The notes beneath the pieces are model-generated. The model was not told where the DNA came from and did not search any database. It saw only the letters and a program-made list of their open reading frames with translations. The translations under genes and the position numbers were made by a program. Below are positions 21,801-46,260 of a stretch of 64,000 bases of DNA, piece after piece (position 1 is the stretch's first letter; every line of letters begins with the position of its first letter). This DNA is from Ahaetulla prasina (Eukaryota > Chordata > Lepidosauria > Squamata > Colubridae): positions 167,777,752-167,841,751 of the forward strand of contig NC_080540.1 of assembly GCF_028640845.1 (NCBI RefSeq). The letters run 5' to 3'.

Positions 21801-24800
21801 TCATTAAGGGAAGAATTTAATGTAGACATTTAATTGTCAAAAAAATGTGGATTTTTTAAAAAAACGTTTCTTAGGGGAAGGATTTCAACTCGTGAGCCTC
21901 CAGAAATCTAAGCCAGTTTGTAAAAAAAAAAAAAAGGATACTAGGAGCTGTTCAGCAACTTCTGTCTGCCCACAGATTCCCTATCTCCAGCCTAGAGCCT
22001 CTCCATAATACCTACCAGCAGTTCAAATCTCACCAGCTCAAAGTTGACTCCGCCTTCCATCTCTCCGAAGCCAGTAAAATGAGGAGCCAGATTGTTGGGG
22101 GCAATAGGCTTACGCTTAGAGTATGCTGTAAAGCACTGTAAAGCGGTACAGTAGAACCTCTGGTCACGAACGCTTCTGACTACAACCAAATCGGGTTCTG
22201 ACCAAAAAATGTACACACAATTTATTTTTTTTTGCGACCAATTTCCCCTTCCGTGCCATTTTTTTTTGTAAATTTCCAAAATTAGTTTCAGGTCACGACC
22301 AAATTGGGTTGTGACCAAAGTTATGGAATGTATTATGGTCATGACCAGAGGTTCTACTGTATATAAGTCTAAGTGCTGTTCCTATTGCTAATGGTAGAAT
22401 AGAATAGAATAGAATAGAATAGAATAGAATAGAATAGAATAGAATAGAATAGAATAGAATAGAATAGAATAGAATAGAATAGAATAGAATAGAATAGAAT
22501 AGAATAGATTTATTGGCCAAGTGTGATTGGACACACAAGGAATTTGTCTTGGTGCATATGCTCTCAATGAACATAAAAGAAAAGATACATTCATCAAGAA
22601 TCATAAGGTACAACAATTAATGATAGTCATAGGGAAACAGTCAATATAAATCTTAGAGATACCAGCAACAAGGTTACAGTCATACAGTCGTAAGTGGGAG
22701 GAGATGGGTGATAGGAACGATGAGAAAATTAATAGTAATGCAGACTTAGTAAATAGTTTGACAGTGTTGAGGGAATTATTTGTTTAGCAGAGTGATGGCA
22801 TTTGGGGAAAAACTGTTCTTGTGTCTAGTTGTTCTGGTGTGCAGTGCTCTATAGTGTCGTTTTGAGGGTAGGAGTTGAAACAGTTTATGTCCAGGATGTG
22901 AGGGATCTGTAAATATTTTCACAGCCCTCTTTTTGACTCCTGCAGTATACAGGTCCTCAATGGAAGGCAGGTTGGTAGCAATTGTTTTTTCTGCAGTTCT
23001 AATTATCCTCTGAAGTCTGTGTCTTTTTTGTTGGGTTGCAGAACCAAACCAGACAGTTATAGAGGTGCAAATGACAGACTCAATAATTCCTTTGTAGAAC
23101 TGGATCAGCAGCTCCTTGGGCAGTTTGAGTTTTCTGAGTTGGCGCAGAAAGAACATTCTTTGTTGTCCTTTTTTGATTATGTTTTTGATGTTAGCTGTAC
23201 ATTTTAGATCTTGTGATATGATAGAACCTAGAAATTTGAAGGTTTCTACTGTTGATACTGTGTTGTCTAGTATTGTGAGAGGTGGAAGTATGGGAGGATT
23301 TCTCCTAAAGTCTACCACCATTTCTACGGTTTTGAGTGTGTTCAGTTCTAGATTGTTCCGGTCGCACCATGAGGCTAGTTGTTCAACCTCACGTCTGTAT
23401 GCAGATTCATCATTGTCTCGAATGAGACCGATCACCATTGTATCATCTGTGAACTTCAGTAGTTTGACAGATGGATCATTAAGAGATGCAGTCATTGGTA
23501 TACAGAGAGAAGTGGGGAGAGCACACAGCCTTAGCCCCCTGTGCTAATTGTACAGGTATCTGATGTGATTCTTAGCTTCACCTGCTGCTTCCTGTTTGTT
23601 AGGAAGCTTATGATCCATTTACAAGTGTGTTCAGGTACCTGTAGCTGATTTAACTTAGAAGAGTATCTGGAATGATGGTATTGAATATTGAACTAAAGTC
23701 TACAAAAAGGACCCTTGCATAGGTCTTTGGAGACTCAAGATGTTGTAGGATGTAGTGCAGAGCCATATTAACAGCATCATCTGTTGATCTATTTGCTCAG
23801 TATGCAAATTGCAAGGGGTTTAACAGCGGATCCATGATGGTTTCCAAGTGGGACAGCACTAGCCTTTCAAAGGTTTTCATGACTACAGATGTTAGAGCAA
23901 CTGGTCTTTAGTTATTCAGTTCCTTGATGGTGGGCTTCTTCGGTACTGGGATGATAGTAGAGTGTTTGAAGCAAGAAGGAACATAGCACATCTCTAGTGA
24001 TTTATTGAAGATATGGGTGAAGATGGGGGCCAATTGGTCAGCACAGACTTTTAAGCAAGAAAAAAGTTATCTTGTATGGGCCTGGAGCTTTTCCTGGCTT
24101 TTGTCTGTGAAATAGGTCTTGCAGTTCCTTTTCTGTGATCACTAAGGGTTGTGAACCCAATGGGATGGGGTCAGTTGTAGGAGGCTTGGCTGTTGTTGCT
24201 GTGTCTGAGATGGGGGTTGTGGAGATAGGTGACTGTAGTTTCCTTTCAAACCTGCAATAAAACATGTTCAGGTCATCTGCCAGTTGCTGATTTCCTTCAG
24301 CCTGGGAAGGAGGTTTGATATTTTTAAGATTTTTCCACATGTTTGCTGGTTCATTTGTTGAAAACTGATTCTTTAGCTTTTCAGAGCAGCTTCTTTTTGC
24401 TGCTCTGATCTCCCTTGTTAATATATTTCTGGCCTGATTGTACAGCATTTTATCACCTTTTCTGTAGGCTTCCTGTTTAGAACGACATAGCTGCTTAAGT
24501 TTAGCTGCGAACCAAGGTTTATTGTTACTGTATATTCGCAAGTTCCTGGTGGGTACACATAGGTCTTCATAGAAGCTGACATACGATGTTACAGTATCTG
24601 AGTTCATCTAAGTCTGCAGAGGTACTTTCAAAACATTCCAATCAGTGCAGTCAAGGCAGGCCTGTAGCTTTAACTTTGCTTCCTCAGTCCAGGTCTTCAC
24701 TGATTTAATTGTTGGTTTTGTGGTTTTAAGATGTTGCCTCTAAGCAGGTATAAGGTGAATCATGCAATGATCAGAGTGTCCCACAGCTGCCCGTGGTAAG

Positions 24801-27800
24801 GACTGATAAGCATCTTTCAGTGTTGTGTAGCAATGATCTAAAGTATTCTTGCCTCTAGCCGGACAATTGACATGCTGAAAGTATTTTGGTAGCTCTTTCC
24901 TTAAGTTTGCTTTGTTTGTAAACCAGCTAACACAAATTGGTAAGGCAGTGAGAAACCAAGTTAAGATTTAGAGTTGCTGTTCTTAGTGAGGGTTATTTTT
25001 TAGTACCAGATCAGCCTTTGGGGAAATATAGGATTCGGAGTATTGTTGCCTGCTACTGTTTATAGCAGGTGTGTGATGCTGTCTCTCTTGATCTGTTCCA
25101 GGATCGCATTCCATTTGTGGTGGCTGAGCGTGTTAGCTGGAAGGCAATGTGTGACACTCTCAACCAGAAGTTCCTTGCAGAGGTGCAAACCACAAAAGGT
25201 CTACTCAAGGATCATTATTTCTTCTTGGCCCAGAAGATCTTTGGTGACAACATCACCAGTCTAGAGGAACTGCAGAGATGCCACGTCTCTTGGTCCCAAT
25301 TCAATAAGGTCTCTCAATGGGTTTTGTTAGAAGGGTGATATGATAGTCTCTTGAGCTTATCTGGTTGGTGTCATCTGCTTCTCATACTCACCTTGTAACT
25401 TACAGGAGATGCTTCCTGGTAGAGGATTCACATTTTGGCAATGGTTTGAAGGCATTCTTGACCTCACCAAGAAATATCTGAAGAACTATTGGTCTGACAG
25501 GTAAGAAAATAAATGGATCAAAACCAGAATGCGCTACATAATTCAGTTTGGTGCAGTGGTTAAGGTGCTGGACTAGAAATGAGGAGGTTGAGTTCTAGTC
25601 CTGCCTTAGGTATGAGAGCCAGCTGGGTGAATTTGGGCTAGTTACTATTCCTCAGCCTAAACTTTTGTAGCATTTTTGTTTTGGGGAAAATAGGAAGAGG
25701 GAGCATTATGTAGACAGCCTTGAGTTGTAAAAGATAAAGGTTGGTTGGGTAAATAAATAAATAAAGTAATTATAAAATTGAATTAGGAGTGAAAGTCTGA
25801 AAACAGAACTTATTTTCCTCCCAATTTTTTTTTCCAGTATAAGAAAGTAGATTTATTGACCAGGTTGGTTGAGTCTTTCTGAGTTGACACAGAAAGAACA
25901 TTCTTTGTTGTGCTTTTTTGATGACGTTTTTGATGTTGGGTGTCCATTTTAGGTCATGAGATATGGTAGAACCTAGAAATTTGAAGGTCTCTACTGTTGA
26001 TACTGTGTTATCTAGTATTTTAAGCGGTGGTAGCATGGGAGGGTTTCTCCTAAAGTCCACCACTATTTCTAGGTTTTGATGTATTTAGTTCCAGATTGTT
26101 CTGGTCGCAGCATGAAGCTAGTTATTCAACCTCCCATCTGTATGCAAATTCATCATTGTCTCGAATGAAACCGATCTTTGTTGTGTCATCTGCGAACTTC
26201 AGTAGTTTAACAGATGGATCATTTGAGATGCAGCCATTGATATGCAGAGAGAAGAGAAGTGGGGAGAACACACAGCCTTGTGGGGGGGGCACTGTGCTAA
26301 TTGTACAGGTATCTGAAGTGATTCTGCTTAGCTTCACCTGCTGCTTCCTGTCTGTTAGGAAGTTTATGATCCATTTACATGTTCAGGTACCGCTAGCTGG
26401 TTTAGCTTAGTTTGAAGAATGTCTGGAATGATGGTGTTGAATGCTGAACTAAAGTCTACAAAGAGGACCCTTGCGTAGGTCTTTGGAGATTCAAAATGTT
26501 GTAGGATGTAGTGCAGAGCCATATTAACAGCATCATCTGTTGATCTATTTGCTCAGTATGCAAATTTCAGGGGGTCTAACAGCAGATCCATGATGGTTTT
26601 CAAGTGAGACAGCACCAGGCTTTCAAAGGTTTTCATAACTACAGATGTTAGAGCAAGTGGTCTGTAGTCATTCAGTTCCTTGATGGTGGGCTTCTTCAGC
26701 AATGGATGATAGTAGAGCGTTTGAAGTAAGAAGGAACATAGCCCATCTCTAGCGATTTATTGAAGATACAGGTGAAGATGGAGGCCAATTGGTCAGCACA
26801 GACTTTTAAGCAAGAAGGAGTTATCTTGTCTGGGCCTGGAGCTTTTCCTGGCTTTTGTCTGTGAAATAGGTCTCGCACTTCCTTTTCTGTAATCACTAGG
26901 GATTGTGAACCCAATGGGATGGGGTCAGTTGTAGGAGGCTTGGCTGTTGTTAGTGTGTCTGAGATGGGGGTTGTGAAGATAGGTGGCTGCAATTTCCTTT
27001 CAAACCTGCAGTAAAACACGTTCAGGTCATCTGCCAATTGTTGATATCCTTCAGCCTGGGAAGGAGGTTTGCCATAACTGGTGATATTTTTAAGACTTTT
27101 CCACGTTTGCTGGTTCATTTGTTGAGAACTGATTCTTTAGCTTTTCAGAGTAGCTTCTTTTTGCTGCTCTGATCTCCCTTGTTAATAAATTTTTGGCCTG
27201 ATTATACAGCATTTTATCACCTTTTCTGTAGACTTCCTGTTTGGAACGATGTAGCTGCTTAAGTTTAGCTGTGAACCAAGGTTTATTGTTACTGTATATT
27301 CACAAGTTCCTGGTGGGTACACATAGGTCTTCACAGTAGCTGACATATGATGTTGCAGTATCTGAGTTCATCTAAGTCTGCAGAGGTACTTTCAAAAACA
27401 TTCCAATCAGTGCAGTCAAGGCAGGTCTGTAGCTTTAACTTTGCTTCCTCAGTCAAGGTCTTCACTGATTTAATTGTTGGTTCTGTGGTTTTAAGTCTTT
27501 GCCTGTAAGCAGGTACAAGGTGAATCATGCAATGATCAGAGTGTCCCACAGCTGCCCGTGATAAGGACCGATAAGCATCTTTCAGTGTTGTATGGGAATG
27601 ATCTAAAGTATTCTTGCCTCTAGCGGGACAATTGACATGCTGAAAGTATTTTGGTAGCTCTTTCCTTAAGTTTGCTGTGTTTGTAAACCAGCTAACACAA
27701 ATTGGTAAGGCAGTGAGAAACCAAGTTAAGATTTAGAGTTACTGTTCTTAGTGAGGGTTATTTTTTAGTACCAGATCAGCCTTTGGGGAAATATAGGATT

Positions 27801-30800
27801 CGGAGTATTGTTGCCTGCTACTGTTTATAGCAGGTGTGTGATGCTGTCTCTCTTGATCTGTTCCAGGATCGCATTCCCTTTGTGGTGGCCGAGCGTGTTA
27901 GCTGGAAGGCAATGTGTGACACTCTCAACCAGAAGTTCCTTGCAGAGGTGCAAACCACAAAAGGTCTACTCAAGGATCATTATTTCTTCTTGGCCCAGAA
28001 GATCTTTGGTGACAACATCACCAGTCTAGAGGAACTGCAGAGATGCCACGTCTCTTGGTCCCAATTCAATAAGGTCTCTCAATGGGTTTTGTTAGAAGGG
28101 TGATATGATAGCCTCTTGAGCTTATCTGGTTGGTGTCATCTGCTTCTCACACTCACCTTGTAATTTACAGGAGATGCTTCCTGGTAGAGGATTCACATTT
28201 TGGCAATGGTTTGAAGGCATTCTTGACCTCACCAAGAAATACCTGAAGAACTATTGGTCTGACAGGTAAGAAAATAAATGGATCAAAACCAGGATGCGCT
28301 ACATAATTCAGTTTGGTGCAGTGGTTAAGGTGCTGGACTAGAAATGAGGAGATTGAGTTCTAGTCCTGCCTTAGGTATGAGAGCCAGCTGGGTGAATTTG
28401 GGCTAGTTACTATCCCTCAGCCTAAACTTTTGTAGCATTTTTGTTTTGGGGAAAATAGGAAGAGGGAGCATTATGTAGACAGCCTTGAGTTGTAAAAGAT
28501 AAAGGTTGGTTGGGTAAATAAATAAATAAATAAATAAAGTAATTATAAAATTGAATTAGGAGTGAAAGTCTGAAAACAGAATTTATTTTCCTCCCAATTT
28601 TTTTTTCCAGTATAAGAAAGTAGATTTATTGACCAGGTTGGTTGAGTCTTATACTGATACACACAGAATAAGAAGTTTCAGTTAGTTTTTTTTATTTATT
28701 TCAAAATCAGAGGGGTGCACTTTTTTCTTTCAACCCTTACTACAATTCTCTAAGCCCTGCAGTGTTGATTATTGATTTTCTCCTGTTTTTTTTCTGTCTG
28801 TCCATTATGTTCATTCAGATTGATCATGGGCTTTGTCAGCAAGCAATATGTTTTCAATTACCTGAGCAATGCGCCAGCTGGGACTTTCCTGTTACGTTTC
28901 AGTGATTCGGAGATTGGTGGCATCAGCATCGCCTATGTTAACTACTTCCCAGATGGTATGTCTTTGCGTAGGACAGGTCCATATTCGCAGAGCTTAAAGT
29001 GGAGGAAAAATAGGTTTTTCTGTCTCTGTTAGATAGGTGATTGTCCATGAAACCCTTTTAACGGTTAATTTGAAGTCAGGATTGTTGAAACTGAGAATAG
29101 TTTTATTATATTTATATGCCAACTGCAAGCGATTCTGGGCAATTTATAATTGTTAAAACGTTTTTTAAAAAACGAAGAACGATACAAAAACAGCCCAAGA
29201 CAAAAAAAATAAGGATGGCAAAGAAAAGAAAGCATCAGCACTTAGACTTATATAGAATAGAATAGAATAGAATTTTATTGGCCAAGTGTGATTGGACACA
29301 CAAGGAATTTGTCTTGGTGCATATATCGCTTCAAAGTGTTGTACAGCCTAGAGGTGAAATCTAAAATTTTTCCCTACCGGTTCTGTGGGCGTGGCTTAAT
29401 TGGTGGGTGTGGCTTGGTGGTCAAGTGACCGGGTGGGTCACAATAAATAATAAAAATAATAAACAAAGTACACAAAACAATAAGAGGTACCAAAAACTAA
29501 CTTTCACACTTTACATACACACACAACACAACACAACTGACTCACACACAATGTAAAAGAAGCTGTACTTCACCCAAAACGGCCCCTGCAACAAGCACAA
29601 AAACTCAAAACGGCCCCTCACACAGCCACAAAAACTCAAAAACCAACTTTCACACTTTACACACCCACAACACAACACAACTGACTCACACACACAAAAT
29701 GTCACACACAGCTTTGTGAGATTTTGTGTGTTTGGGTAGTTAGAATGAAACACTAGAGAAACACACCAAATCTCAGAAAGCTGCACAAATATTTTATTTT
29801 TTTATTTTATTTATATTTTTTAGATAAAAGCAGCTAAATTTAAAACTTCCGTAACTTTAATTTGCTGTCTAAAAAAAAAAACTCCTTAAAAAAGCCAATT
29901 AACTATTTTTTAAAACTTCCCCCCTCCAGTTAGTTACCCAATTGTGAAGGAAGGCAGATTGAGTTACTCACTGATGAGATGGCTTGCAGGCAGGCAGATT
30001 CAGTTGCTAGCTGATGCAATTGATTGCAGCAGCCGAATCAAGGCTTAGTGAGGCCGAAAGAAGCAGCAAGTAGACAAGAGGGGACCGGGCGATTGCGTGG
30101 GCATGGGCTGTTGTAAGAGGTTGTAAAAAAATGATTTTAAAAGCCTGTGATTAACAGGCAACTCAGCTGGGATCGCCAGAGGAGCCTTTTAAAAGCCGAA
30201 GAGGTTGTTAAAAAAAAAGCTTTTAAAGGATTCTGACAATCCCAGCTGAGCCGCTCGATCATCAAAGGTATTTTTTACTTTTAAAAACATTTTTTTTGGC
30301 CGAAGAAAAAATGCTTTTAAAAGTAAAAAAACCCCTCTGATGATCACGTGGCTCAGCTGGGGCAGGGGGTGGGGCCAGGGATTTTTGCTACCAGTTCTCC
30401 AAACCACCCGCCGCAACCGCTACCGGATCAGGCGATCTGGTCCAAATCGGGAGCATTTCACCCCTGGTACAGCCCCCTCTAAGCAGTTTACGGAGTCAGC
30501 CTATTGCCCCCAACAATCTGGGTCCTCATTTTACCCACCTCGGAAAGATAGAATGCTGAGTCGACCTTGAGCCGGTGAGATTCAAACTGCCAAATTGTAG
30601 GCAGCTGGCAGTCAGCAGAAGTAGCCTGCAGTACTGCACTCTAACCACTGCGCCACCACAAGGAAGAAAGGAGTTCTCCCAAGGCTTGGGCAAAGAGCCA
30701 GATCTTTAAGGCCCTTTGAAACACAGCAGGGTGGGACCATTTAAATTTCAGGGGAAACTTCATTCCCGAGAGCAGGCACTGCTGCAGGGAAGGCACACTT

Positions 30801-33800
30801 CCAGAGTCCCAATAGGTGGCAATGTTTAATTGATGGAACCCAGAGTGCATCGACCCTGCCAAATTGAACCAGTTGAGCACATATTATGGGAGAGAGGCAG
30901 TCCCTGAAATAACTAGGTCCTATGCCATGTGGGGCTTTAAAGATAGCAACCAGCATTTTGAATTTCACCCCAAAGCAAACTGGCAGCAAGTATAGCTCAC
31001 AAAGCAGAAGTATTACATAGGCATATTATGGCAAACCCATCACTGCCTGTGTGTCTGCATTCTGGATGAGCTGAAGCTTTCAAGTGGTCTTCAAGAGCAG
31101 CCTCATGTAGACAGCATTGCCATAGTCAAGCAGTGAAGTGATCGGGGTACAAGTCACTGACTGAAGGAACCCTCAATTTAGGAAAGGCACAACTGGTACA
31201 CCAGATGAAATTGGGCAAAATTTCCGGCTGGCACCTGCTCAATGAACAGGAGCTGTAAGCCCACAAAAGACTTCCAAATTAGGTATTATCCTTGATGAAA
31301 CTCCATACAAAGTCAAACTTGGATTATCCCCAGATCTGGGTGGTCCAAACACTGAAACCCTAACCCTTACCCTAACCTTTACCCTTACCCTAACCCTTAC
31401 CCTTATCCTAACCCTTACTGTAACCCTAACCCTTACCTTTACCCTAACCCTTACCGTAACCCTAACCCTAACCCTAGCCTTAAACCTTACCCTAATTCTT
31501 ACCCTAACCCTTACCCTTACCCTGACCCTAACCCTAACCCTAATCCTTACCTTACCCTAACCCTAACCCTTACCCTAACCCTTACCCTAACCCTAACCCT
31601 AACCCTTACCCTTACCCTAACCCTTATCCTTATCCTTACCCTTTCCCTAACCCTAACCATAAGTAGGTTTACCATCCAATGGGATTTTTCCATGTAGAAA
31701 AAGATAGAAAAGCATGATTGAAAAATTCAGTGCTCTTCTAAGCATACTGATGCGCTGTGAATTCATTGGCGACATCCATTTTGCTCTACAAAATGTTGAT
31801 GGGGATCTAACCCTAACCCTAAAGTCACTTGGTCTTGGTAGGATTGAGTTAGAGACAGTTCTTCTTCATCCAAACCCAGACAGTCTCCAGGCACTTGGAC
31901 AGAATTTGACAGCTTCACTTGGCCAGCCTGGACTCAAAAGGGTACCATCATCATACTGATGTTACTGAACCACCACCCCAAACTGGCAGCTCACCGAGCT
32001 ATTTCATGTAGATGTTGAAAAGGAGGGGAGAGAATACAACCTTGTGGCACACCACAAGCGAGAGACCTAAGGGAAGATCTCTTCCCATCAATCAACACCA
32101 ACTGGAATCAGCCCTGGGGAAAAGAATAGAGGCATGCTCCCAATGTCCTACTCAAGGAATCAGCTGAGAAAAGTACTGGGATCAGTAGAATCAAAAGCCA
32201 CCGAGACCACCATCCCAGCTCTGCCAAAATCATCAACAAGCTCTGATAGGAATAATACCCTCATCAACTGAGTAATGCCATGGAAACATCCGTTTCCCTT
32301 CCCAGCTCTAATCTGGAGCAGGGTTGGAAGGGAAGAATCAATCCCATTGATTTAAAAGGGCAAGGAATTAACTAATTACATTCCAGCTCTCTGCTAACCT
32401 CCAGTTGTAAGGGCGCTGGGAAGGATGGGTGTGGTTATTGGTCCAAAGCAGCACGGCTGGAACTGGCTGTTGGTGAAACTCAGTACATTAGCATGAACAT
32501 ACAATACTGGGCCAAATTATCTACTCAATATTGTTCTACTTCTCTAATGAATAGCAGTATTTCTTAGGGGTTTCACATGAAACCTTTCACGTTCCTATCA
32601 TGGAGTAGTTTCTGCTTCCACCTTTTTATAGTGGCTCTTTGAACTTTCATGTGTATACAGTATATATAACAGTGGTGGAATTCAAATTTTTTACTACCGG
32701 TTCTGTGGGTGTGGCTTGGTAGGCGTGGTATGGCTTGGTGGGCATGGCAGGGGAAGGGTACTGCAAAATCCCCATTCCCACCCCACTCCAGGGGAAGGAT
32801 ACTACAAAATCCCCATTCCCTCCCCACTTCTGGGGGAAGGATATTTCAAAATCTCCATTCCCACCCCACTCTGGGGCCAGCCAGAGGTAGTATTTGCCGG
32901 TTCTCCAAACTACTCAAAATTTCCGCTACCAGTCTCCAGAACCTGCTGAATTGCACCCTTGATTATATAATATACCCCCAACAATTCCTCCTGGTATCTC
33001 TGTGCCTCACCAAAACACATGACTTGCAATTTGCCATCAAGCAGAACTCACAAAGTTTGACCATAGCTGTGTATTCTCAGTAGAGAGAGGATTTAAGTCT
33101 TACAGGAACAATGTGATCTTGCTAGAAGCAACTCCAGCATTTGGCTTGTGTATCGTGATTCTTGGAATCTAGTTGCTTGTTGACTAACCACAACCTCATT
33201 CCTCCCTTGATTTGCTGTTGTAAATTTGACTTGACTTTGGACTGCTCTACTTGGAAATTTGCCTTGCCCAACTAATAACTGACTGCTGTTTCCTTGCTGT
33301 GGGGATTTGCAAAAGCAAGTCTTTCCCTTAACACACCGAGTGCCTGGCTTTTGAAAGGGTGCTAAAAAAATGCTAGGTTGGGAATTTGGACAGTTTCCCA
33401 TGATTCACATGCATATTGTCGCGTGGCAGCAGAGGAGACCCAATCACTGGTCCACCATTTTGAAGATTGTGTGGGCTGGAATTGCTGAAGAAGGATGGTT
33501 GGCATTGGAAGGTTGGCTGGTTCTCCCGTAGAAAAGAACATAGAGCTTTTTGGTGAGGAGCAGTATAGTCAGGTGTTGGTGCAAGTATTTGACCTACTCA
33601 AGTTTTTGCAGCTGCCTGGGCATTGACCTCTTGCATTTGCAGCCAAAATGTTGCCTGTTCAGGCAACTACTAGGCTCACCTATTGAATTATCAGTCAGTC
33701 TGTCTGCTGGACTGTTGGACCTTAGTTTTTGTCCTGCAATGGAGATTGGATACATAAGATAATAGTTAAATTCCAAGGCAGCTTCTAACTCCCTTGGAAT

Positions 33801-36800
33801 TGGAGACTAGCAAGGAGAAGAAGAAATGCATGTGTGGGAATCGAATCGAATAGAATCGAATAGAATAGAATTTTTATTGGCCAAGTATGATTGGACACAC
33901 AAGGAATTTGTCTTGGTGCATATGGTCTCAATGTACATAAAAGAAAAGATACCTTCATCAAGGTATAGCACTTACAACACTTAATGATAGTCATAAAAGT
34001 AAAGGTAAAGGTTCCCCTTGCACATACGTGCTAGTCGTTGCCGACTCTAGGGGGCGGTGCTCATCTTCGTTTCAAAGCCGAAGAGCCAGCGCTGTCCAAA
34101 GATGTCTCCGTGGTCATGTGGCTGGCATGACTCAATGCCAAAGGCGCACGGAATGCTGTTACCTTCCCACCAAAGGTGGTTCCTAATTTTTCTACTTGCA
34201 TTTTTACGTGCTTTCGAAACTGCTAGGTTGGCAGAAGCTGGGACTAGTAACGGGAGCTCACCCCATTACACGGCAGCACTAGGGATTTGAACCGCCGAGC
34301 TGCCTACCTTTCGATCGACAAGCTCAACGTCCTAGCCCCTGAGCCACCGTGTCCCTGTATGATAGTCATAGGGTACAAATTTAACACTTAATGACACAAC
34401 ACTTAATGATAGTCAAAGGCTACAAATAGCAATCAGGAAACAATCAATATCAGTATAAATTGTAAGGATACAAGCAACAAAGTTACAATCATAAGTGGAA
34501 GGAAATGGGTGATGGGAATGATGAGAAGATTAATAGTAGTGCAGATTGTAATAAATAGTTATAAATAGTAAATAGTTTGACAATGTTGAGGGAATTATTT
34601 GTTTAGCAGAGTGATGGCATTTGGGAAAAAACTATTCTTGTGTCTAGTTGTTCTGGTGTGCAGTGCAATTGCATCATTTTGAGGGTAGAAGTTGATACGG
34701 TTTATGTCCAGGATGTCAATTATAATTAGAATTTGTAGAAGTCCCACCCAAAGGCCTGATATACAGAGAAGCCAAATTCAAGCAAATCCAATGCAACCAG
34801 AAGGTATGGGTGGCTGCTATGAATCATAAGTATACATTTTGTGTGTGTGATGGGCTGACATTTTCATTTCTTTACGGGCTGTTTTCTCTTCCTTTGTCTC
34901 AGGTTCCACTCAGGTGGAGAACATCCAGCCATTCACGGCCAAGCAATTGTCCATTCGTTCACTGGCTGACTGTGTTCTGGATCTCCCACAACTCCATGTG
35001 CTTTATCCTAACAGGCCCAAACACGAGGCTTTCAGGAGGGACTACAACAGTGAGTGGCGGGGAGAAAGGCAGGGGAGAAGATCCAGACAGAAGGAAGCTC
35101 AATATTTTACAAGGGTGTTCCTTCCCCATGTGAGCTCTTCCTTTCCTGTGCCCGACAGTCAGGGACAGAATTTAACATTTGCTGGAATATATCGGGTTGA
35201 AAATCAAGCTGGAAGAAGGAGGCTTGATGGGAAAAAATATGGCCTGACAAAAGCGTGGCTTTCAAAAACAAGATCCAGAAGAATTCCCTTATTTAAATTA
35301 TTGGTTCATTAAAAAAAAAATTGGGGGGGGGCTTACGTACACCCAAAAGGAAATTTTCTGCCAATATACAGCATAATGAGGAATGTAACATGATTAGAGC
35401 AGTACAAACTAAAAAAAATAATAAAGTAAAATGGCAAGGCATAATATTTTTTTCAATTAGATAAAGACATTTAATTTATATTCAAAATTCCCAAGAAAAA
35501 AGTTGAAAAGGGAACAAAACTGGTACCAAGAATACTCCTCTAAGAAGTTATTCCAAAATCGTTTTGCCATTGTAAAGTCTCTTTTTTTAGAGACTGTAAA
35601 TCCATTTACTGTGTACATGGTCCTATAGCAAGAGTTGCTGGTTAACTTTCTTTTTATGTGTTTTGTTTTTTTCCCCTTGACTTTATATTTGTTCAGATGG
35701 ATGTAGTAAAGAACAAGATTAAGTTAAGTTTGAAAAACAGAGGAGCAAAATTAAAGTCAGGTAGGGAAAAATGGGTTCTGTACAGATTCTGAAGGACAGG
35801 ATATAATCTAGTGTATGTATATGTATATTTATTTGTTATATAAATCTTATTATTTTATGCAAGGGCAATATTTTATGTGTCCCACAATCAAAATAACTAG
35901 AAATGTTTGGGAAGTCAAATGCAATTTTGATGACTGATCTACTATAATTGGAACTTGGCAGCTTAATATGCTCATTGTGTAAGCTGAATAAAATTATCAA
36001 AATGTAGTAGAAAATGTTTATTTTGAGAGAATATATGTTATAATTCTGCTTGCAGGTGCAAATTTTGGTGAAGGTTCTTATAAATCACAAAATAACGTGA
36101 ACATGGGACTTGGAATAAAAACATACAAAATGGCATAGACCCGATTAGGATTGATTTGCTTATCCATATCTGATTGCTCTCCCCAGTTCCATTCTGCATT
36201 TAAGACAGAGCTAACTTTCAGCAAATCCATGAATTTTCTCACATAAACTTTCATAGTTCGAGTGACATGACACATAATTGAACAAAAGGTGTGTCTCCAG
36301 AGCTTTTGCTGTATATCAGTCAGAAAATATGAAGAGGCTCATTTCTATTAATGAACCAATACTCCAAGCAGAAACTGCTTGGAGATTCTAAAGATAAGGC
36401 TGAGCAGGTCACAGGATAAGCTCCATCTAATATTTGGATGGCAGGCAGGAATTCCTGCCTGGATCATTTCCAGCATCCTTGTCTGAGAATTTATAAGAGT
36501 CATTGAATACATCAAACACCAAACAATTGACTCATCCCTATTTGGGACTCTACCTTTCTGTAATTGATAAGTTGGAAGACATCAGCCTGGGAACTGCTGC
36601 TATAGAGGGAAAGCAACTTCTGCTTTAGGGCTTCCTCTTGTTACAAAACTTCTTGAAATTTCTTTGTGTATGACAAATACGAACCGATTTGTGCATTGAG
36701 AAGCTAAAATGCGGTTATGTTTCTTTCCACAGCAGAGACACGAAAAAACACCAGCAGTTACGTCCCAGCCAGGTTAACCATAACTGTAGACACGTGAGTG

Positions 36801-45800: not shown

Positions 45801-46260
45801 AGACGTTTCGCTTCTCATCCAAGAAGCATCTTCGGCTGTGAAGAAGAAACGAAACGTCGTTGAAGAAAAACCAGAAAGTCCAGTTGCCTCTTGGAAAAAA
45901 AAGCACCTTTGGGATGTTGGGCTGATGCAATTTGTTTTGTCTACTGATAAGAAGCCAAGGGAAGCTGGGGAGGCTGAAATGGGGGTGCGTAGCTGGATTC
46001 AAACTTGCAAGTTCTTGGCCAGAACCCAAGAAACTGGGGAGGGAAAATATAATGGGATGATAGCATGATCCTGCCTGTTGGCTGTGAGGTGCTTCATGAG
46101 AACAAATTCCTCAAGTCCGCTTGCTCACTGCCTGTTTCCCCTCCCCACCTCCAGTGTGCCTGAGACCATTTCGCCACCTTCCAGTGAAGAGTTTGAAAAG
46201 CTTCTGCATCCAGACCAAGACCTGCACCCAGACCTTCACTTTTGCCATAATTCAGTGTGA
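1520..46260 (+). CDS. STAT6: STAT6 gene span (partial at 5' end; 13 distinct coding exons, two of them duplicated)
   Basis: Signal transducer and activator of transcription 6, the cytoplasmic-to-nuclear factor that JAKs phosphorylate after IL-4/IL-13 receptor engagement. The exons, in order, match the vertebrate STAT6 architecture from memory of the human protein: end of coiled coil, DNA-binding domain ([29 protein letters not shown]), linker (WSQFNK), SH2 domain ([15 protein letters not shown]), SSYVPA tyrosine site and C-terminal tail. Every exon shown has AG/GT borders and junction phases that agree with the next exon. The N-terminal domain and most of the coiled coil lie before base 1. 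The region after the tyrosine is about 130 residues, against about 206 in human, so the transactivation tail is short. Introns are large (the first is 11.6 kb) and full of transposons. NAB2 follows in convergent orientation. The STAT6 rather than STAT5 or STAT2 identity is secure from the DNA-binding and SH2 sequence plus the neighbour. Confidence 0.96.
1825..3150 (-). mobile_element. L1 LINE, ORF2 C-terminal part
   Basis: Minus-strand open stretches with an L1 C-terminal zinc-knuckle ([19 protein letters not shown]) and [20 protein letters not shown], then an AT-rich 3' end near 1830. It continues after an interruption at 5063-5428. Broken by several frame shifts. Confidence 0.85.
3150..3535 (+). 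mobile_element. LINE 3'-terminal fragment
   Basis: A 78-residue open frame ends with a non-LTR type C-terminus ([20 protein letters not shown] and NTLPDSVV), followed by an AT-rich tail. The L1 reading breaks off around 3140-3150. It is part of the material that interrupts the L1. Confidence 0.55.
3541..4990 (+). mobile_element. CR1/L2-type LINE, RT and C-terminal domain, frameshifted
   Basis: RT motifs are visible: [38 protein letters not shown] and [12 protein letters not shown] (the catalytic YADD). The C-terminal [20 protein letters not shown] segment is in a second frame. The frame changes at a G run near 4084-4093. The 3' UTR is followed by a (TA)n tract. It is a dead copy inserted in the L1. 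Confidence 0.88.
4931..4990. repeat. (AT)n microsatellite
   Basis: About 30 uninterrupted AT repeats directly after the LINE 3' end. Confidence 0.97.
5063..5428 (-). mobile_element. L1 LINE, upstream part of the interrupted ORF2
   Basis: The minus strand codes for [30 protein letters not shown] and then [17 protein letters not shown] in different frames. These are L1 ORF2 motifs that precede those at 1825-3150, so the two pieces are one L1 split by the LINE material between them. Confidence 0.82.
5430..5890 (-). mobile_element. CR1/L2-type LINE 3' end, inverted relative to 3541-4990
   Basis: The minus strand codes for [20 protein letters not shown] and [20 protein letters not shown], the same C-terminus as the + strand copy at 4500-4745. 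It has a TTAT-rich tail at 5430-5452. The two copies form an inverted pair about 0.5 kb apart. Confidence 0.88.
5891..6960. other. STAT6 intron, no feature recognised
   Basis: AT-rich sequence with a degenerate hAT MITE trace near 6110-6215 and a purine/pyrimidine-alternating tatgtata-rich patch at 6535-6625. No exon was seen on either strand. Confidence 0.5.
6961..7175 (+). mobile_element. CORE/MIR-like tRNA SINE
   Basis: tRNA-like head (gtggtgtagtggttagaatg), then ggttgactcaactttccttc, attgttgggggcaatatgct and a gcttagagagggct tail. Same family at 8170-8400, 22008-22148 and around 29326/30467. Confidence 0.75.
7186..7320. mobile_element. TA-flanked MITE (aataagac family)
   Basis: Terminal inverted repeats ccctgtttcccccaaaataagac and the complement, flanked by TA. 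Further copies lie at 57678, 57920, 58172 and 60952. TA duplication suggests the Tc1/mariner superfamily. Confidence 0.85.
7321..8160. other. STAT6 intron, no feature recognised
   Basis: A short (CATA)n run at 7322-7355, then AT-rich sequence without exon or clear repeat. Confidence 0.5.
8170..8400 (-). mobile_element. CORE/MIR-like tRNA SINE
   Basis: Reverse complement of the family at 6961: agccctctctaagcggttta, ttgcccccaacaatctgggt and the tRNA-like end ctaaccactataccagc. Confidence 0.78.
8465..8690 (-). mobile_element. tRNA-derived SINE
   Basis: TTTATT-rich tail, then the reverse of the gaaaataggaggagg and ccttgagttattt segments seen at 39385-39600, and the head at tagatagaccaca. Confidence 0.7.
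8937..9305. mobile_element. Tigger-like MITE, old copy
   Basis: Degenerate version of the CAGGTAGTCCTCGACTTA...CTACCTG family, with TA flanks. Clearer copies lie at 15973, 48395, 49097 and 59975. Confidence 0.7.
9549..10092. mobile_element. hAT nonautonomous element (CAGGGGTGAAAT family)
   Basis: Starts CAGGGGTGAAAT and ends catttcacccc. The interior has repeated, inverted gcttttaaaagcatttttt blocks. The right terminus is diverged, and no clear 8-bp duplication is left. Related full copies lie at 29349 and 39829. Confidence 0.75.
10093..11020. other. STAT6 intron, no feature recognised
   Basis: AT-rich sequence without a supported exon or repeat on either strand. Confidence 0.5.
11021..11551 (+). 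mobile_element. possible solo LTR
   Basis: Begins TGTGGCCTGTCGGCAGCC. It has a TATA-like aaataaata at 11349, an AATAAA at about 11489, and a plausible end taaaca near 11551. No matching target duplication was found, so the limits are uncertain. The 116-codon acidic frame inside is not a recognisable protein. Confidence 0.4.
11848..12763 (+). mobile_element. Sauria SINE interrupted by an LTR
   Basis: tRNA head (gtggctcagtggctaagacg, gcttgtcgatcgaaaggtca), a central gcaagtagaaaaataggga block and the 3' part ctagagtcgggaacgactag with a CCTTTCCCTTT tail. It is flanked by acatctctcaa at 11837-11847 and 12764-12774. A 551-bp LTR sits inside it. Confidence 0.9.
12050..12600. mobile_element. solo LTR inside the Sauria SINE
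   Basis: Begins TGTTTTGTCC and ends GACACAACA. It is flanked by agtgt (12045-12049) and agcgt (12601-12605), a 5-bp duplication with one mismatch. It has the TATA-like ttttatatcc and the ggctccatgactcagc block shared with the LTR at 49343. It contains a doubled ~30-bp unit at 12521-12575. No internal retroviral or gypsy-type coding region is present. Confidence 0.85.
12813..12880. repeat. (GATA)n microsatellite
   Basis: About 17 GATA units. The rest of 12775-13254 is intron without other recognisable features. Confidence 0.97.
13255..13443 (+). CDS. STAT6: STAT6 exon: start of DNA-binding domain
   Basis: Acceptor tttcctctccag, donor gtgaga. It codes for [18 protein letters not shown] near the start and [17 protein letters not shown] near the end, nearly identical to the human STAT6 DNA-binding domain entry. 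The 189-bp exon enters after two bases and leaves two bases (AG). Confidence 0.97.
13444..14237. other. STAT6 intron with an undefined repeat
   Basis: 13747-13790 (ttagaattagaataactttg) resembles 11762-11800, and 14215-14240 resembles the sequence near 11820-11835, so both are probably pieces of one LINE-like repeat. The family was not identified. Confidence 0.4.
14257..15705 (+). mobile_element. short L1-like retroposon with 19-bp target duplication
   Basis: Flanked exactly by gaaatttgcgaaggtggag at 14238-14256 and 15706-15724. It has an L1-like GC-rich 5' leader, one 112-codon frame (14808-15146: [20 protein letters not shown]...), then a G-rich 3' UTR and an A-rich tail after ttttgaataaaa. 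No RT is present. It looks like an internally deleted or ORF1-only L1 moved by L1 machinery. The frame is not a known host protein. Confidence 0.85.
15725..15972. other. STAT6 intron, no feature recognised
   Basis: AT-rich unique-looking sequence between the L1-like insertion and a MITE. Confidence 0.45.
15973..16353. mobile_element. Tigger-like MITE (CAGGTAGTCCTC family)
   Basis: Ends CAGGTAGTCCTCAACTTACG and the complement ...GAGGACTACCTG, flanked by TA on both sides. Interior gtcacttttttcagtg-type sequence is shared by many copies in this window. TA flanks and CAG ends suggest pogo/Tigger of the Tc1/mariner group. Confidence 0.9.
16587..16674 (+). CDS. STAT6: STAT6 exon: DNA-binding domain
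   Basis: Acceptor gacttcag, donor gtaagt. It codes for ESTGEIVNN...SCTAQFKNL, matching human ESTGEIINN...CCSALFKNL. The 88-bp exon exits in phase 0. Confidence 0.96.
16675..17736. other. STAT6 intron, no feature recognised
   Basis: Contains open frames but none with splice borders or recognisable residues. Confidence 0.5.
17737..17963. mobile_element. hAT MITE with perfect 8-bp duplication
   Basis: Ends CAGTGCTGAAAT and ATTTCACCCCTG, flanked by catggggg at 17729-17736 and 17964-17971. Interior gtgggcgtggcttggtgggc and ccggttctccagaacctgc. Confidence 0.9.
18063..18185 (+). CDS. STAT6: STAT6 exon: DNA-binding domain core
   Basis: Acceptor catcttcag, donor gtagca. 41 codons, phase 0 to 0, starting [20 protein letters not shown]; human has [20 protein letters not shown]. 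This is the basic DNA-contacting stretch. Confidence 0.97.
18716..18948. mobile_element. hAT and Tigger-like MITE fragments
   Basis: 18716-18800 carries the accggttctc and gggtgggcgtggc motifs of the hAT MITE. 18835-18948 is the 3' part of the Tigger-like family (cagtgccattgtaactttga). Both are truncated. The rest of 18186-19392 is plain intron. Confidence 0.65.
19393..19550 (+). mobile_element. chimeric SINE: Sauria-type tRNA head with CR1 tail
   Basis: Head ggtggctcagtggctaagac, gagcttgtcgatcagaaagg and gcagttcgaatccct, followed directly by ttggactatatgacctccaa and ggtcccttccagctct, the CR1 terminus. A second copy lies on the - strand at 48885-49032. Confidence 0.85.
19605..19675 (+). repeat. 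fragment of an unassigned palindromic retroelement end
   Basis: aaagtccagttgcctcttg, acctttgggacaaccatgac and tggatgactg match the right arms of the foldbacks at 45715 and 61580. Confidence 0.7.
19805..20342. mobile_element. SPIN-type hAT element, nonautonomous
   Basis: Ends CAGTGGTTCTCAACCT and AGGTTGAGAACCGCTG, flanked by the perfect duplication ccttaggt (19797-19804, 20343-20350). On the reverse strand the right end reads gtgggtcgggaccccattgg and then gcctaagaccatcggaaat, as remembered for SPIN. A 32-bp unit (aatacaattccccacgatgt...) is repeated three times at about 19851-19925. No transposase. Confidence 0.88.
20351..21163. other. STAT6 intron, no feature recognised
   Basis: A G run at 20583-20593. 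No exon or repeat was recognised. Confidence 0.5.
21164..21445. mobile_element. hAT MITE with perfect 8-bp duplication
   Basis: Ends CAGGGGTGAAAT and TTTCACTCCTG, flanked by cttctcct at 21156-21163 and 21446-21453. Contains ggttacttcctggttaaaac, a local inverted repeat. Confidence 0.9.
21677..21769 (+). CDS. STAT6: STAT6 exon: end of DNA-binding domain
   Basis: Acceptor cgttttag, donor gtaagt. 31 codons, phase 0 to 0: [20 protein letters not shown] followed by TILWDNAF. This is the strongly conserved STAT signature segment. Confidence 0.98.
22008..22392 (+). mobile_element. CORE/MIR-like SINE interrupted by a TA MITE
   Basis: SINE sequence 22020-22148 stops at gcggTA and resumes at 22360 with TAtaagtctaagtgctg. 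The insert is the MITE at 22149-22359. Confidence 0.8.
22149..22359. mobile_element. TA-flanked MITE (CAGTAGAACCTCTGGTCA family)
   Basis: Inverted ends CAGTAGAACCTCTGGTCACG and the complement, flanked by TA, inserted into a SINE. Only this copy was seen in the window. Confidence 0.9.
22394..22508. repeat. (TAGAA)n microsatellite at a LINE 3' end
   Basis: About 23 near-perfect copies of a 5-bp unit directly next to the 3' end of the LINE at 22509. Confidence 0.97.
22509..24960 (-). mobile_element. CR1/L2/L3-type LINE, 3' part, in STAT6 intron
   Basis: Reverse-strand reverse transcriptase with decayed frames. The left part codes for a C-terminal RT segment with [20 protein letters not shown] and [13 protein letters not shown], and ends with [13 protein letters not shown]. 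The right part holds [12 protein letters not shown] and endonuclease-like sequence. The 3' end abuts the (TAGAA)n tract, the microsatellite-seeding pattern known for snake L3/CR1 LINEs. The right boundary is approximate. Confidence 0.85.
25102..25308 (+). CDS. STAT6: STAT6 linker-domain exon, duplicate copy A
   Basis: Acceptor gatctgttccag, donor gtctct (a weak GT). 69 codons, phase 0 to 0, from [17 protein letters not shown] to VSWSQFNK. It encodes the same protein as the copy at 27867-28073. The two differ at two synonymous third positions (Pro cca/ccc, Ala gct/gcc). Either copy can join the exon at 21769 in frame. Confidence 0.93.
25406..25500 (+). CDS. STAT6: STAT6 linker/SH2 junction exon, duplicate copy A
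   Basis: Acceptor cttacag, donor gtaaga. It codes for [20 protein letters not shown] and ends KNYWSDR, with the last Arg split AG/A. The 95-bp exon enters in phase 0 and leaves two bases. It joins 28819 correctly. Joined to the duplicate linker exon at 27867 it would shift frame and reach a stop (TAG) at about 28027. Confidence 0.92.
25553..25765 (+). mobile_element. tRNA-derived SINE (duplicated unit A)
   Basis: ggtgcagtggttaaggtgct, ctggactagaaatgagg, gagagccagctgggtgaatt and an (AAAT)n tail. It is carried along in the tandem duplication. Confidence 0.8.
25877..27720 (-). mobile_element. LINE fragment in duplicated unit B (3' end missing)
   Basis: Same family and orientation as 22509-24960, but cut at 25877 by the duplication junction, so it lacks the 3' UTR and the (TAGAA)n tail. 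RT pieces [20 protein letters not shown] and [15 protein letters not shown] are visible with frame breaks between them. Confidence 0.85.
27867..28073 (+). CDS. STAT6: STAT6 linker-domain exon, duplicate copy B
   Basis: Identical in protein to 25102-25308 and with the same splice borders, sitting in the second unit of the tandem duplication. A normal mRNA can contain only one of the two exon pairs. Both copies are free of stops and splice-site damage, so sequence alone does not show which is used. Confidence 0.9.
28171..28265 (+). CDS. STAT6: STAT6 linker/SH2 junction exon, duplicate copy B
   Basis: Same borders and protein as 25406-25500. The only coding change seen is Tyr tat to tac. It is the copy nearest the next unique exon (28819), so in a simple linear splice it would be the natural partner. 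Confidence 0.9.
28313..28540 (+). mobile_element. tRNA-derived SINE (duplicated unit B)
   Basis: The partner of 25553-25765. It differs at a few bases and has a longer AAAT tail, an expansion since duplication. Confidence 0.8.
28819..28955 (+). CDS. STAT6: STAT6 exon: SH2 domain with FLLRFS
   Basis: Acceptor gttcattcag, donor gtatgt. It codes for [17 protein letters not shown] and then [18 protein letters not shown]. The Arg of FLLRFS is the phosphotyrosine-binding residue of STAT SH2 domains and is intact. Phases 2 in, 1 out. Confidence 0.98.
29253..29325 (-). mobile_element. L3/CR1 LINE 3' tip
   Basis: (TAGAA)n followed by attttattggccaagtgtga and ttggacacacaaggaatttg, the same 3' end as at 22509. 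The sequence 29041-29252 between it and the STAT6 SH2 exon is plain intron. Confidence 0.85.
29326..30660 (-). mobile_element. CORE/MIR-like SINE split by a hAT element
   Basis: SINE start tatcgcttcaaagtgttgtacagcc is cut at 29348 and continues at 30467 (gtacagccccctctaagcag) through the tRNA-like end near 30655. Confidence 0.82.
29349..30466. mobile_element. hAT nonautonomous element, 1.1 kb, inserted in a SINE
   Basis: Ends tagaggtgaaat and ATTTCACCCCTG, flanked by the perfect duplication gtacagcc (29341-29348, 30467-30474). Interior includes acacaacacaactgactcac repeated twice and ttttaaaagc inverted blocks like those at 9549 and 39829. No transposase frame was found. Confidence 0.88.
30661..31020 (-). 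mobile_element. CR1/L2-type LINE C-terminal fragment, decayed
   Basis: The minus strand resembles the family C-terminus ([25 protein letters not shown]). No intact frame. Confidence 0.7.
31357..31659. repeat. interstitial telomere-like tract (CCCTAA/CCCTTA)n
   Basis: About 300 bp of ccctaa mixed with cccttac variants, the C-rich strand of TTAGGG repeats, in a STAT6 intron between decayed LINE pieces. A short ctaaccctaaccctaa echo lies at 31808-31823. Confidence 0.95.
31960..32330 (-). mobile_element. decayed LINE reverse transcriptase fragment
   Basis: The reverse complement near 32000-32055 gives VPQGCILSP followed, after a frame break, by FNIYMK, the RT motif also seen at 3785-3850. It probably belongs with 30661-31020, split by the telomere-like tract. 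Confidence 0.65.
32670..32961. mobile_element. hAT MITE (accggttctgtgggtgtggc family)
   Basis: Ends CAGTGGTGGAATTC and AATTGCACCCTTG. Contains tandem ~35-bp units (gggaaggatactacaaaatccccattcc). Flanks are AT-rich, so the 8-bp duplication is unclear. Confidence 0.8.
33841..34735 (-). mobile_element. L3/CR1 LINE 3' end interrupted by a Sauria SINE
   Basis: (TCGAA/TAGAA)n, then ttattggccaagtatgattg and the same 3' UTR as at 22509-22860. The interruption is 33996-34358. Confidence 0.88.
33996..34358 (-). mobile_element. full-length Sauria SINE
   Basis: On the reverse strand: gccaccgtgtccc-side tRNA head, agcttgtcgatcg, and the 3' end ctagagtcggcaacgactag with an ACCTTTACCTTTACTTT tail. Perfect 12-bp duplication atgatagtcata at 33984-33995 and 34359-34370. 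Confidence 0.93.
34903..35049 (+). CDS. STAT6: STAT6 exon: C-terminal half of SH2
   Basis: Acceptor ttgtctcag, donor gtgagt. It codes for [20 protein letters not shown] and ends [10 protein letters not shown]; human has IENIQPFSAKDLSIRSL...DEAFRSHY. 147 bp, phases consistent with both neighbours. Confidence 0.97.
35050..36732. other. STAT6 intron, no repeat recognised
   Basis: Unique-looking AT-rich sequence between the SH2 exon and the tyrosine exon. Confidence 0.5.
36733..36793 (+). CDS. STAT6: STAT6 exon: activating tyrosine (human Y641 equivalent)
   Basis: Donor gtgagt. A 61-bp exon coding for [18 protein letters not shown]. The Tyr codon is at 36759-36761 and aligns with human GRGYVPATIKMT, the JAK target that lets STAT6 dimerise. 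The acceptor is a CAGCAG tandem (NAGNAG), so splicing three bases later (36736) would change Asn-Thr-Glu-Thr to Asn-Lys-Thr without altering frame. Confidence 0.94.
37005..37445 (-). mobile_element. CR1 LINE 3' end
   Basis: Begins with the reverse of the CR1 terminus (aaggttagaagggaccttgg, aggtcttatagtccaagccc) and continues through ctccagtgatggagcaccca and ctatgtggcagcccctcaaa. Confidence 0.9.
37891..37986 (+). CDS. STAT6: STAT6 exon: C-terminal tail
   Basis: Acceptor caatttcag, donor gtaagt. It codes for 31 complete residues from [17 protein letters not shown] to HSVSTYH. There is no clear residue match to the human tail, which is poorly conserved. The call rests on splice borders, matching phases (1 base in, 2 out) and position. 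Confidence 0.82.
37987..39384. other. STAT6 intron, no repeat recognised
   Basis: Unique-looking sequence after the tail exon. No further exon found. Confidence 0.45.
39385..39605 (+). mobile_element. tRNA-derived SINE
   Basis: gtctagtgcttaagcatcag, ggcatgaaagccagctggct, ggggaaaataggaggaggaa and cttgagttatttaaaaata. Same family as 25553 and 8465. Confidence 0.78.
39829..40398. mobile_element. hAT nonautonomous element (CAGGGGTGAAAT family)
   Basis: Ends CAGGGGTGAAAT and ATTTCACCACTG, flanked by gtaaaacc and gtaaaaac (one mismatch). Interior inverted gcttttaaaagcattttt blocks. Confidence 0.85.
40730..41136. mobile_element. Tigger-like MITE
   Basis: Starts TA-CAGGTGATCCTTGACTTAC and ends gtaagtcaaggattacc. 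Confidence 0.8.
41401..41813. mobile_element. Tigger-like MITE, old copy
   Basis: gggtagtcctcacttaacca at the left, aagcaaagactatctgta at the right. Diverged. Confidence 0.7.
41838..42571. mobile_element. 734-bp foldback element, TA duplication
   Basis: Ends ctgtattttttggactataa and the complement, flanked by TA. Left (about 41850-42180) and right (about 42190-42560) arms are imperfect inverted copies of each other, which explains the similar open frames on opposite strands ([24 protein letters not shown]). These are not genes. Confidence 0.85.
42572..42966. other. STAT6 intron, no feature recognised
   Basis: AT-rich sequence up to the acceptor of the 42967 exon. Confidence 0.45.
42967..43134 (+). 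CDS. STAT6: STAT6 exon: C-terminal tail
   Basis: Acceptor ctctcacag, donor gtgagt. It codes for 55 complete residues, including [17 protein letters not shown] and [11 protein letters not shown]. It is acidic and Ser/Pro rich, as expected for a transactivation region. Phases fit both neighbours, and the reading frame is open for exactly the exon. Confidence 0.85.
43401..45568 (-). mobile_element. 2.2-kb L1-like insertion with 14-bp target duplication
   Basis: Flanked exactly by atgtcctcagtttc at 43387-43400 and 45569-45582. A T-rich left end is the poly(A) side of a minus-strand element. The GC-rich right end (45300-45568) is an L1-like 5' UTR. A short frame, [17 protein letters not shown] (44806-44621), may be an ORF1 remnant. 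No RT was found. Confidence 0.82.
45715..45925. repeat. inverted dimer of a retroelement end
   Basis: The left arm (cccaaaggtgctttttttt, aagaggcaactgactttcca) and right arm (gaaagtccagttgcctcttg, agcacctttgggatg) are inverted copies around cttcggctgtgaag. Family also at 61580 and 19605. The ggatgag and gaaacgtctt motifs resemble ends of Penelope- or DIRS-like elements; unproven. Confidence 0.75.
46155..46260 (+). CDS. STAT6: STAT6 last coding exon and stop
   Basis: Acceptor ccacctccag. It codes for [20 protein letters not shown] and ends HFCHNSV, then [15 protein letters not shown] resembles the human segment holding the LxxLL motif that binds the NCoA-1 co-activator. Here the first Leu is Phe (FEKLL). 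About 40 residues that follow in human are replaced by a short unrelated end. Confidence 0.86.

Follow-up and report, generated by a model that had tools for sequence, protein, structure and literature searches.

A probable tandem duplication of two STAT6 exons with a chimeric LINE between the copies in the snake Ahaetulla prasina

Two STAT6 exon pairs in tandem

The window analyzed here is a 64-kb stretch (64,000 nucleotides) of the Ahaetulla prasina genome, positions 167777752-167841751 of contig NC_080540.1 in assembly GCF_028640845.1, and it carries the STAT6 gene on its + strand. Two consecutive exons of this gene, the 207-bp linker-domain exon and the 95-bp exon that follows it, are present twice in direct orientation. 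We consider it rather probable that the arrangement is genuine: a tandem duplication, about 1.4-1.6 kb long, within a functional STAT6, which would have arisen by recombination between two long interspersed nuclear elements (LINEs), would later have been homogenised over the exon block, and would be tolerated through splicing of one 95-nt exon per message. The exons, placed by tblastn with a human STAT6 query and then by coordinates and translation, and the stop codon that their joining creates are as follows.

25102..25308, + strand: LA, first copy of the STAT6 linker-domain exon (207 bp, phase 0-0; tblastn and translation)
25406..25500, + strand: EA, first copy of the exon that follows (95 bp; tblastn and translation)
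27867..28073, + strand: LB, second copy of the linker exon (207 bp; tblastn and translation)
28171..28265, + strand: EB, second copy of the exon that follows (95 bp; tblastn and translation)
28819..28955, + strand: exon after the pairs, start of the SH2 domain (tblastn, translation and Pfam)
28027..28029, + strand: first stop (TAG) with the four exons joined (computed from the gene model)

The identification of the gene as STAT6, proposed in a previous sequence-only reading of this DNA, was borne out by the 399-residue part of the model up to 35049, whose best match among PDB chains was STAT6 (E 3.5e-168), and by Pfam matches of the gene model to STAT_bind, STAT_linker and SH2, with the DNA-binding, linker and SH2 domains in order. 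The same reading described exons of 207 and 95 bp with intact splice sites in both units, and LA, EA, LB and EB are indeed all flanked by GT-AG, being tandem homologous coding exons. The splice contexts of LA and LB are identical where compared, and the acceptors of EA and EB differ by two pyrimidine swaps, beyond which the two pairs agree in both acceptors and donors. Comparison of the translated exons also agreed with the claim that the three coding differences between the pairs are all synonymous: none of the three alters a residue and both pairs encode the same 101-residue stretch. If residues had changed at the noncoding rate, the pairs should differ by about 3.0 amino acids, and they differ by none (P about 0.05); this absence is a weak hint that both pairs have been constrained since they were last alike. 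The sole length difference in the exon block consists of two TAAA-type units (8 bp; 25749 in copy 1, 28515-28522 in copy 2), as is typical of microsatellites. A search of the 1.77-Gb assembly (1.772 Gb in 745 pieces) located the exon pair in exactly two places.

Stepped divergence along the unit

A BLAST comparison of the window with itself matched 23125-25894 to 25869-28668 (92.7% over 2812 columns). This corresponds to the two direct units of ~2.75 kb reported before from the sequence; however, each unit is not one duplicate, and the stretch that was truly duplicated measures about 1.4-1.6 kb. The segments and LINEs concerned are listed below.

24475..25877, + strand: first copy of the truly duplicated block (left edge between 24292 and 24475; states found only in the LINE parts of the two copies begin at 24475, where these parts are sisters in trees)
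27239..28650, + strand: true duplicated block, copy 2 (from the trees and the register to copy 1)
27597..28650, + strand: portion of copy 2 with low divergence (differs by 1.24% from 24832-25877; homogenisation is probable)
22508..24919, - strand: LINE-A, CR1-type, truncated at its 5' end and with a decayed open reading frame (reverse-strand reading, RVT_1)
22395..22508, no strand assigned: AATAG/TAGAA pentamer array at the LINE-A 3' end (114 bp, 22.8 copies, 100% matches in Tandem Repeats Finder)
25876..27046, - strand: LINE-B part of copy 2, without a 3' end (groups with L025-L027 at 100/99 and not with the copy-1 LINE)

In the register of copy 1, divergence between the units falls in three tiers. 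The first one, 23131-24292, differs at 110/1153 positions (9.5%) and consists of different LINE insertions. The second, 24475-24831, differs at 22/357 (6.2%) and is a single insertion that was duplicated, that is, a common LINE tail, and the zone between these two tiers (24293-24474) differs at 7/180. The third, 24832-25877, holds the exons, introns and 88 bases of LINE and differs at only 13/1046 (1.24%). A change point was detected at 24832 (log-likelihood ratio 38.7, with a maximum of 7.8 in 300 shuffles) and a second, weaker step at 23539 (10.0, maximum 8.7 in shuffles). The difference between the second and third tiers gave a Fisher p of 2.4e-6, or 2.4e-5 with the noncoding positions alone (10/744), values that flatter the step somewhat as the boundary at 24832 was picked from the same data. 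The difference clusters at 24731-24733 and 24827-24831 perhaps represent one event each, and with the count so reduced to 18/357 the p values are 9.7e-5 and, for noncoding positions, 6.8e-4. Because divergence steps down from 6.2% to 1.24%, these data suggest that the duplication is the older event and that the exon block was homogenised later; its age would then be several times what the divergence of the exon block implies. Conversion might also show as long stretches without any difference in the LINE part, and the longest such stretch, of 71 bases, gave no signal (P 0.22). Polishing of the assembly with short reads is another process that might, in principle, have made the exon copies more similar.

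Phylogeny of the LINEs

The LINE parts of copy 1 and copy 2 (c1 and c2) were compared with other LINE copies of the genome. Searches were made with 1.7 kb of each LINE, and the best 40 of 7379 first-look candidates were scored for copy 2 and the best 40 of 8499 for copy 1, self included. A first tree of 19 rows contained c1, c2, 16 copies chosen from the copy-2 list by length and score, and the local L024; one copy from the top 17, located at C7, was skipped as shorter and a 92% partial copy was used instead. A second tree of 31 rows added the 12 best copy-1 matches new to the set, with other local fragments set aside.

Over the left segment (23131-24292), L025, L026 and L027 form a group with c2 (100/99) and c1 is placed elsewhere. 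Forcing a clade of c1 and c2 costs 60 log units with 19 rows (p-AU 6.4e-5) and 55 with 31 rows (p-AU 1.8e-4), and the left-segment trees reject the view that the whole 2.75-kb unit is a single copied insertion. In the right segment (24475-24919) c1 and c2 are sisters, with support of 99/97 in the 19-row tree and 100/97 in the 31-row tree, and each shows a private change of 0.027-0.029 per site. Among the 31 rows, c1 and c2 alone share five base states and a 2-bp deletion, each of them at position 24475 or higher; further left they have no such state. Position 24680 has a sixth base that is exclusive to the two among 19 rows and not among 31, and the two columns 24918-24919 were left uncounted as alignment edge effects.

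Among the best 40 of 7379 candidates for the copy-2 LINE, the ones that were scored, full-length copies other than itself reached 91%, longer partial ones 92% and short pieces of 78-136 bases 92-94%; the copy-1 LINE was not among these 40. The best other copy among the best 40 of 8499 for the copy-1 LINE reached 92%, and the copy-2 LINE was likewise not among them. A recent templated origin of LINE-B from another locus is unsupported, since the longest other copies are only 91-92% alike among the best 40 of 7379. In the left-segment tree the end branches of L042, L044, L045 and L046 are short (0.002-0.006), which suggests that the LINE family has been recently active.

A proposed recombination origin

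The trees and the alignment show that the two copies are separated by a chimeric LINE whose parts stand in homologous register. The switch from LINE-B to the copy of LINE-A falls within 27046-27239, and the LINE-A 5' junction at 24919/24920 is common to copy 2 (the edge was set by eye in the alignment with family copies). At its left end LINE-B joins the intron at 25876, where both sequences read TTGAGTYTT. Repeat-mediated recombination acts on repeats in direct orientation and leaves such an in-register chimera between the duplicates, and we infer homologous recombination between LINEs as the mechanism: two LINEs of one family in direct orientation would have recombined, the LINE-A tail and the exons would have been copied behind a separate LINE-B, and a chimeric LINE would have been left between the copies. 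The exon block would later have been homogenised by gene conversion or unequal exchange.

Reading frame and predicted splicing outcomes

The sequence-only reading held that use of both pairs shifts the frame and meets a stop at about 28027. This was confirmed, the stop being TAG at 28027-28029 when the four exons are joined (LA+EA+LB+EB); it starts 47 nt before the LB end, with EB and the later junctions still downstream. A stop located upstream of later exon junctions usually sends a transcript to nonsense-mediated decay, and decay is predicted for transcripts with both pairs because EB and the later junctions follow the stop.

The 16 possible inclusion patterns were scored on the partial gene model and six of them remained open to the natural stop: EA, LA+EA, EB, LA+EB, LB+EB and LA+LB+EB. 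The rule that unites them is the presence of exactly one 95-nt exon, without a linker exon downstream of it. Inclusion of EA or EB without any linker exon leaves the frame open with 69 residues fewer, and LA+LB+EB adds 69 residues, giving 579 in the partial model, open to its end. The previous list of outcomes (mutually exclusive use of the pairs, loss of one by skipping, or an assembly artefact) was therefore incomplete, as LA+EB, LA+LB+EB, EA alone and EB alone are also open; its frame arithmetic was correct, and its artefact option is disfavoured in the simple form of unmerged haplotypes. STAT6 would be functional from transcripts containing one 95-nt exon only, mostly as a single pair, and those with both pairs would stop at 28027 and be degraded. 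Mutually exclusive use of the pairs appears plausible from the frame, yet splice-site strength does not explain a choice between them because the sites are nearly the same in both.

Alternative explanations

Several points weigh against a recombination origin followed by homogenisation and selective splicing. Unequal crossing-over in a single step should place a LINE-B behind copy 2, and none was found there: within the window, 28650-28819 had no BLAST match to LINEs, and beyond it the first LINE pieces on the same strand are 3' ends at 29264-29324 and 33862-34716. Since LINE-B is missing there and lacks its own 3' end, extra events must be assumed, such as a crossover between a chromosome with and a chromosome without a polymorphic LINE-B, or a later LINE-B loss. 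Among the 31 rows, L024 and c2 have nine exclusive states in common, against five for c1 and c2, so that the LINE-B part may itself be mosaic; this likeness possibly reflects conversion between LINEs on one chromosome. In copy-1 register the nine states lie between 23336 and 24292, and L024 (7698-9999) is about 136 kb upstream of copy 2. Concerning splicing, the sites give no favour to mutual exclusion, the 2366-nt intron between EA and LB seems too long for steric exclusion, and default joining of all four exons might make this a poor allele. The lack of amino-acid change is weak evidence for constraint, and an exon between 36793 and 42967 is perhaps absent from the model, which makes it tentative to call the gene intact at its 3' end.

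The explanations that compete with this reading overlap, and the confidences we attach to them do not sum to one. A simple 2.75-kb tandem duplication through the 9-bp similarity at 25876, after which the LINE of one unit was overwritten by ectopic conversion, is doubtful, though it shares the splicing side with the explanation we prefer. It would account for the TTGAGTYTT similarity, for the missing 3' end of LINE-B, which a breakpoint within the element would produce, and for the nine exclusive states that L024, ~136 kb upstream, has in common with copy 2. It needs, however, a conversion tract of >1.1 kb whose donor LINE belonged to a different subfamily, and no long donor above 92% was seen among the scored candidates (best 40 of 7379 and best 40 of 8499).

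An assembly artefact, in which two haplotypes were placed in series or a chimeric join was made inside LINE sequence, seems unlikely. The exon block, with 1.24% divergence and one microsatellite length difference, is allele-like, and false exon gains of this kind are among those documented in vertebrate assemblies by PMC9516828. Yet allele-level divergence does not extend along the whole unit: separate LINE insertions 9.5% apart are followed by a sister tail at 6.2% and then by 1.24%, which is unexpected of two alleles, and a sister tail with ~2.8% private change per side is not made by joining alleles. There is no gap near the duplication (0 N in 284,000 bases around the exon pairs, in a sequence of 304.6 Mb), and long LINE copies are at most 92% alike among the scored candidates (best 40 of 7379 and best 40 of 8499), with no misjoined source seen. 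The stepped divergence, the 284 kb without N and the finding of the exon pair in two genomic places only thus argue against simple unmerged haplotypes.

We regard it as equally improbable that the duplication is real but damaging, with the four exons joined, the mRNA decaying and the other allele providing function. The near-identical splice sites and the long EA-LB intron offer no reason for skipping a pair; on the other hand, a LINE tail diverged by 6.2% makes the duplication look old, and an old null allele should have decayed elsewhere. The recognised exons are open, a weak point as recognition itself favours open exons. Finally, it is very improbable that LA+LB+EB messages are made and yield a STAT6 in which the 69-residue linker segment is doubled: their frame is open through the 579 residues of the partial model, but EA alone would have to be skipped though the sites of EA and EB are almost identical.

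Comparison with known systems

The closest known case is U2AF1, whose tandem exons 3a and 3b are described in PMC6821156 as mutually exclusive, with double inclusion (U2AF1c) leading to nonsense-mediated decay. As in that account, the STAT6 exons are tandem duplicated coding exons of which one set gives the full protein, and inclusion of both creates a premature stop (here TAG at 28027) and predicted decay. Unlike the U2AF1 isoforms described there, which differ by seven residues and have a conserved arrangement, pair 1 and pair 2 of STAT6 encode the same residues, so the two choices would not give different proteins; moreover, the STAT6 block comprises two duplicated exons, read here from genomic sequence. 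The Dscam exons of Daphnia and Drosophila treated in PMC3236188 are also tandem duplicates, spliced in a mutually exclusive manner there and, by our inference, in STAT6. For the Dscam exons examined in that study no evidence of gene conversion was reported, whereas the STAT6 exon block appears homogenised. The false exon gains presented in PMC9516828 resemble the STAT6 case in having a duplicated exon in one gene on one scaffold, and are marked there by gaps, discordant reads and near-half depth; the STAT6 locus has no gap, a stepped divergence and separate LINEs. Our literature search for STAT6 exon duplication in snakes found no paper, and we do not claim its absence from print.

A long-lived duplication is a tentative further possibility: frame-incompatible STAT6 pairs with identical products would be kept alike by gene conversion, one 95-nt exon would be left out of each productive message, and dose could follow the rate of double inclusion. 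If the duplication is real and fixed, splice choice would have to protect an important immune gene, without different sites or products, and the locus is a case for asking how a vertebrate gene outlives a frame-breaking tandem exon duplication. The stepped divergence would also make it a datable example of LINE recombination that duplicates exons, with homogenisation of the coding part afterwards.

Regarding the type of LINE, a LINE-A fragment with X at stops matched RVT_1 (E 3.4e-10), the reverse-transcriptase domain we looked for in the comparison with CR1-L3. AATAG loci adjoin CR1-L3 LINEs in the colubroid snakes covered by PMC6050309, and LINE-A likewise bears a 114-bp AATAG-type array at its 3' end, as is typical of these snakes. 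The CR1-L3 name for LINE-A rests on this tail and not on a repeat-library assignment, and Rex LINEs are also linked to AATAG in that paper. In viral_contigs, where the LINE was also looked for, 26 stretches fit a pattern and none was a relative.

Rest of the STAT6 gene and minor features

In the window, STAT6 exons were placed at 1520, 13255, 16587, 18063 and 21677, in both pairs, and at 28819 and 34903; upstream of it, others were recognised in L015, L004 (three) and L003. The recognised exons on both sides of the pairs are open and have GT-AG sites, as read by eye. The three last coding exons, at 36733, 42967 and 46155-46260, are tentative, being based on weak matches (E above 1) and frame.

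Just behind the SH2 exon, at 29264-29324, a short piece of LINE 3' end that carries pentamer repeats lies on the same strand as LINE-A, and 51 of its bases are identical to the LINE-A 3' end. A telomere-like AACCCT array of ~300 bp (80% matches in Tandem Repeats Finder) occupies 31356-31662 in a STAT6 intron. The same program identified a tandem repeat of 240 bp at 57679-58299, with 2.5 copies and 90% matches.

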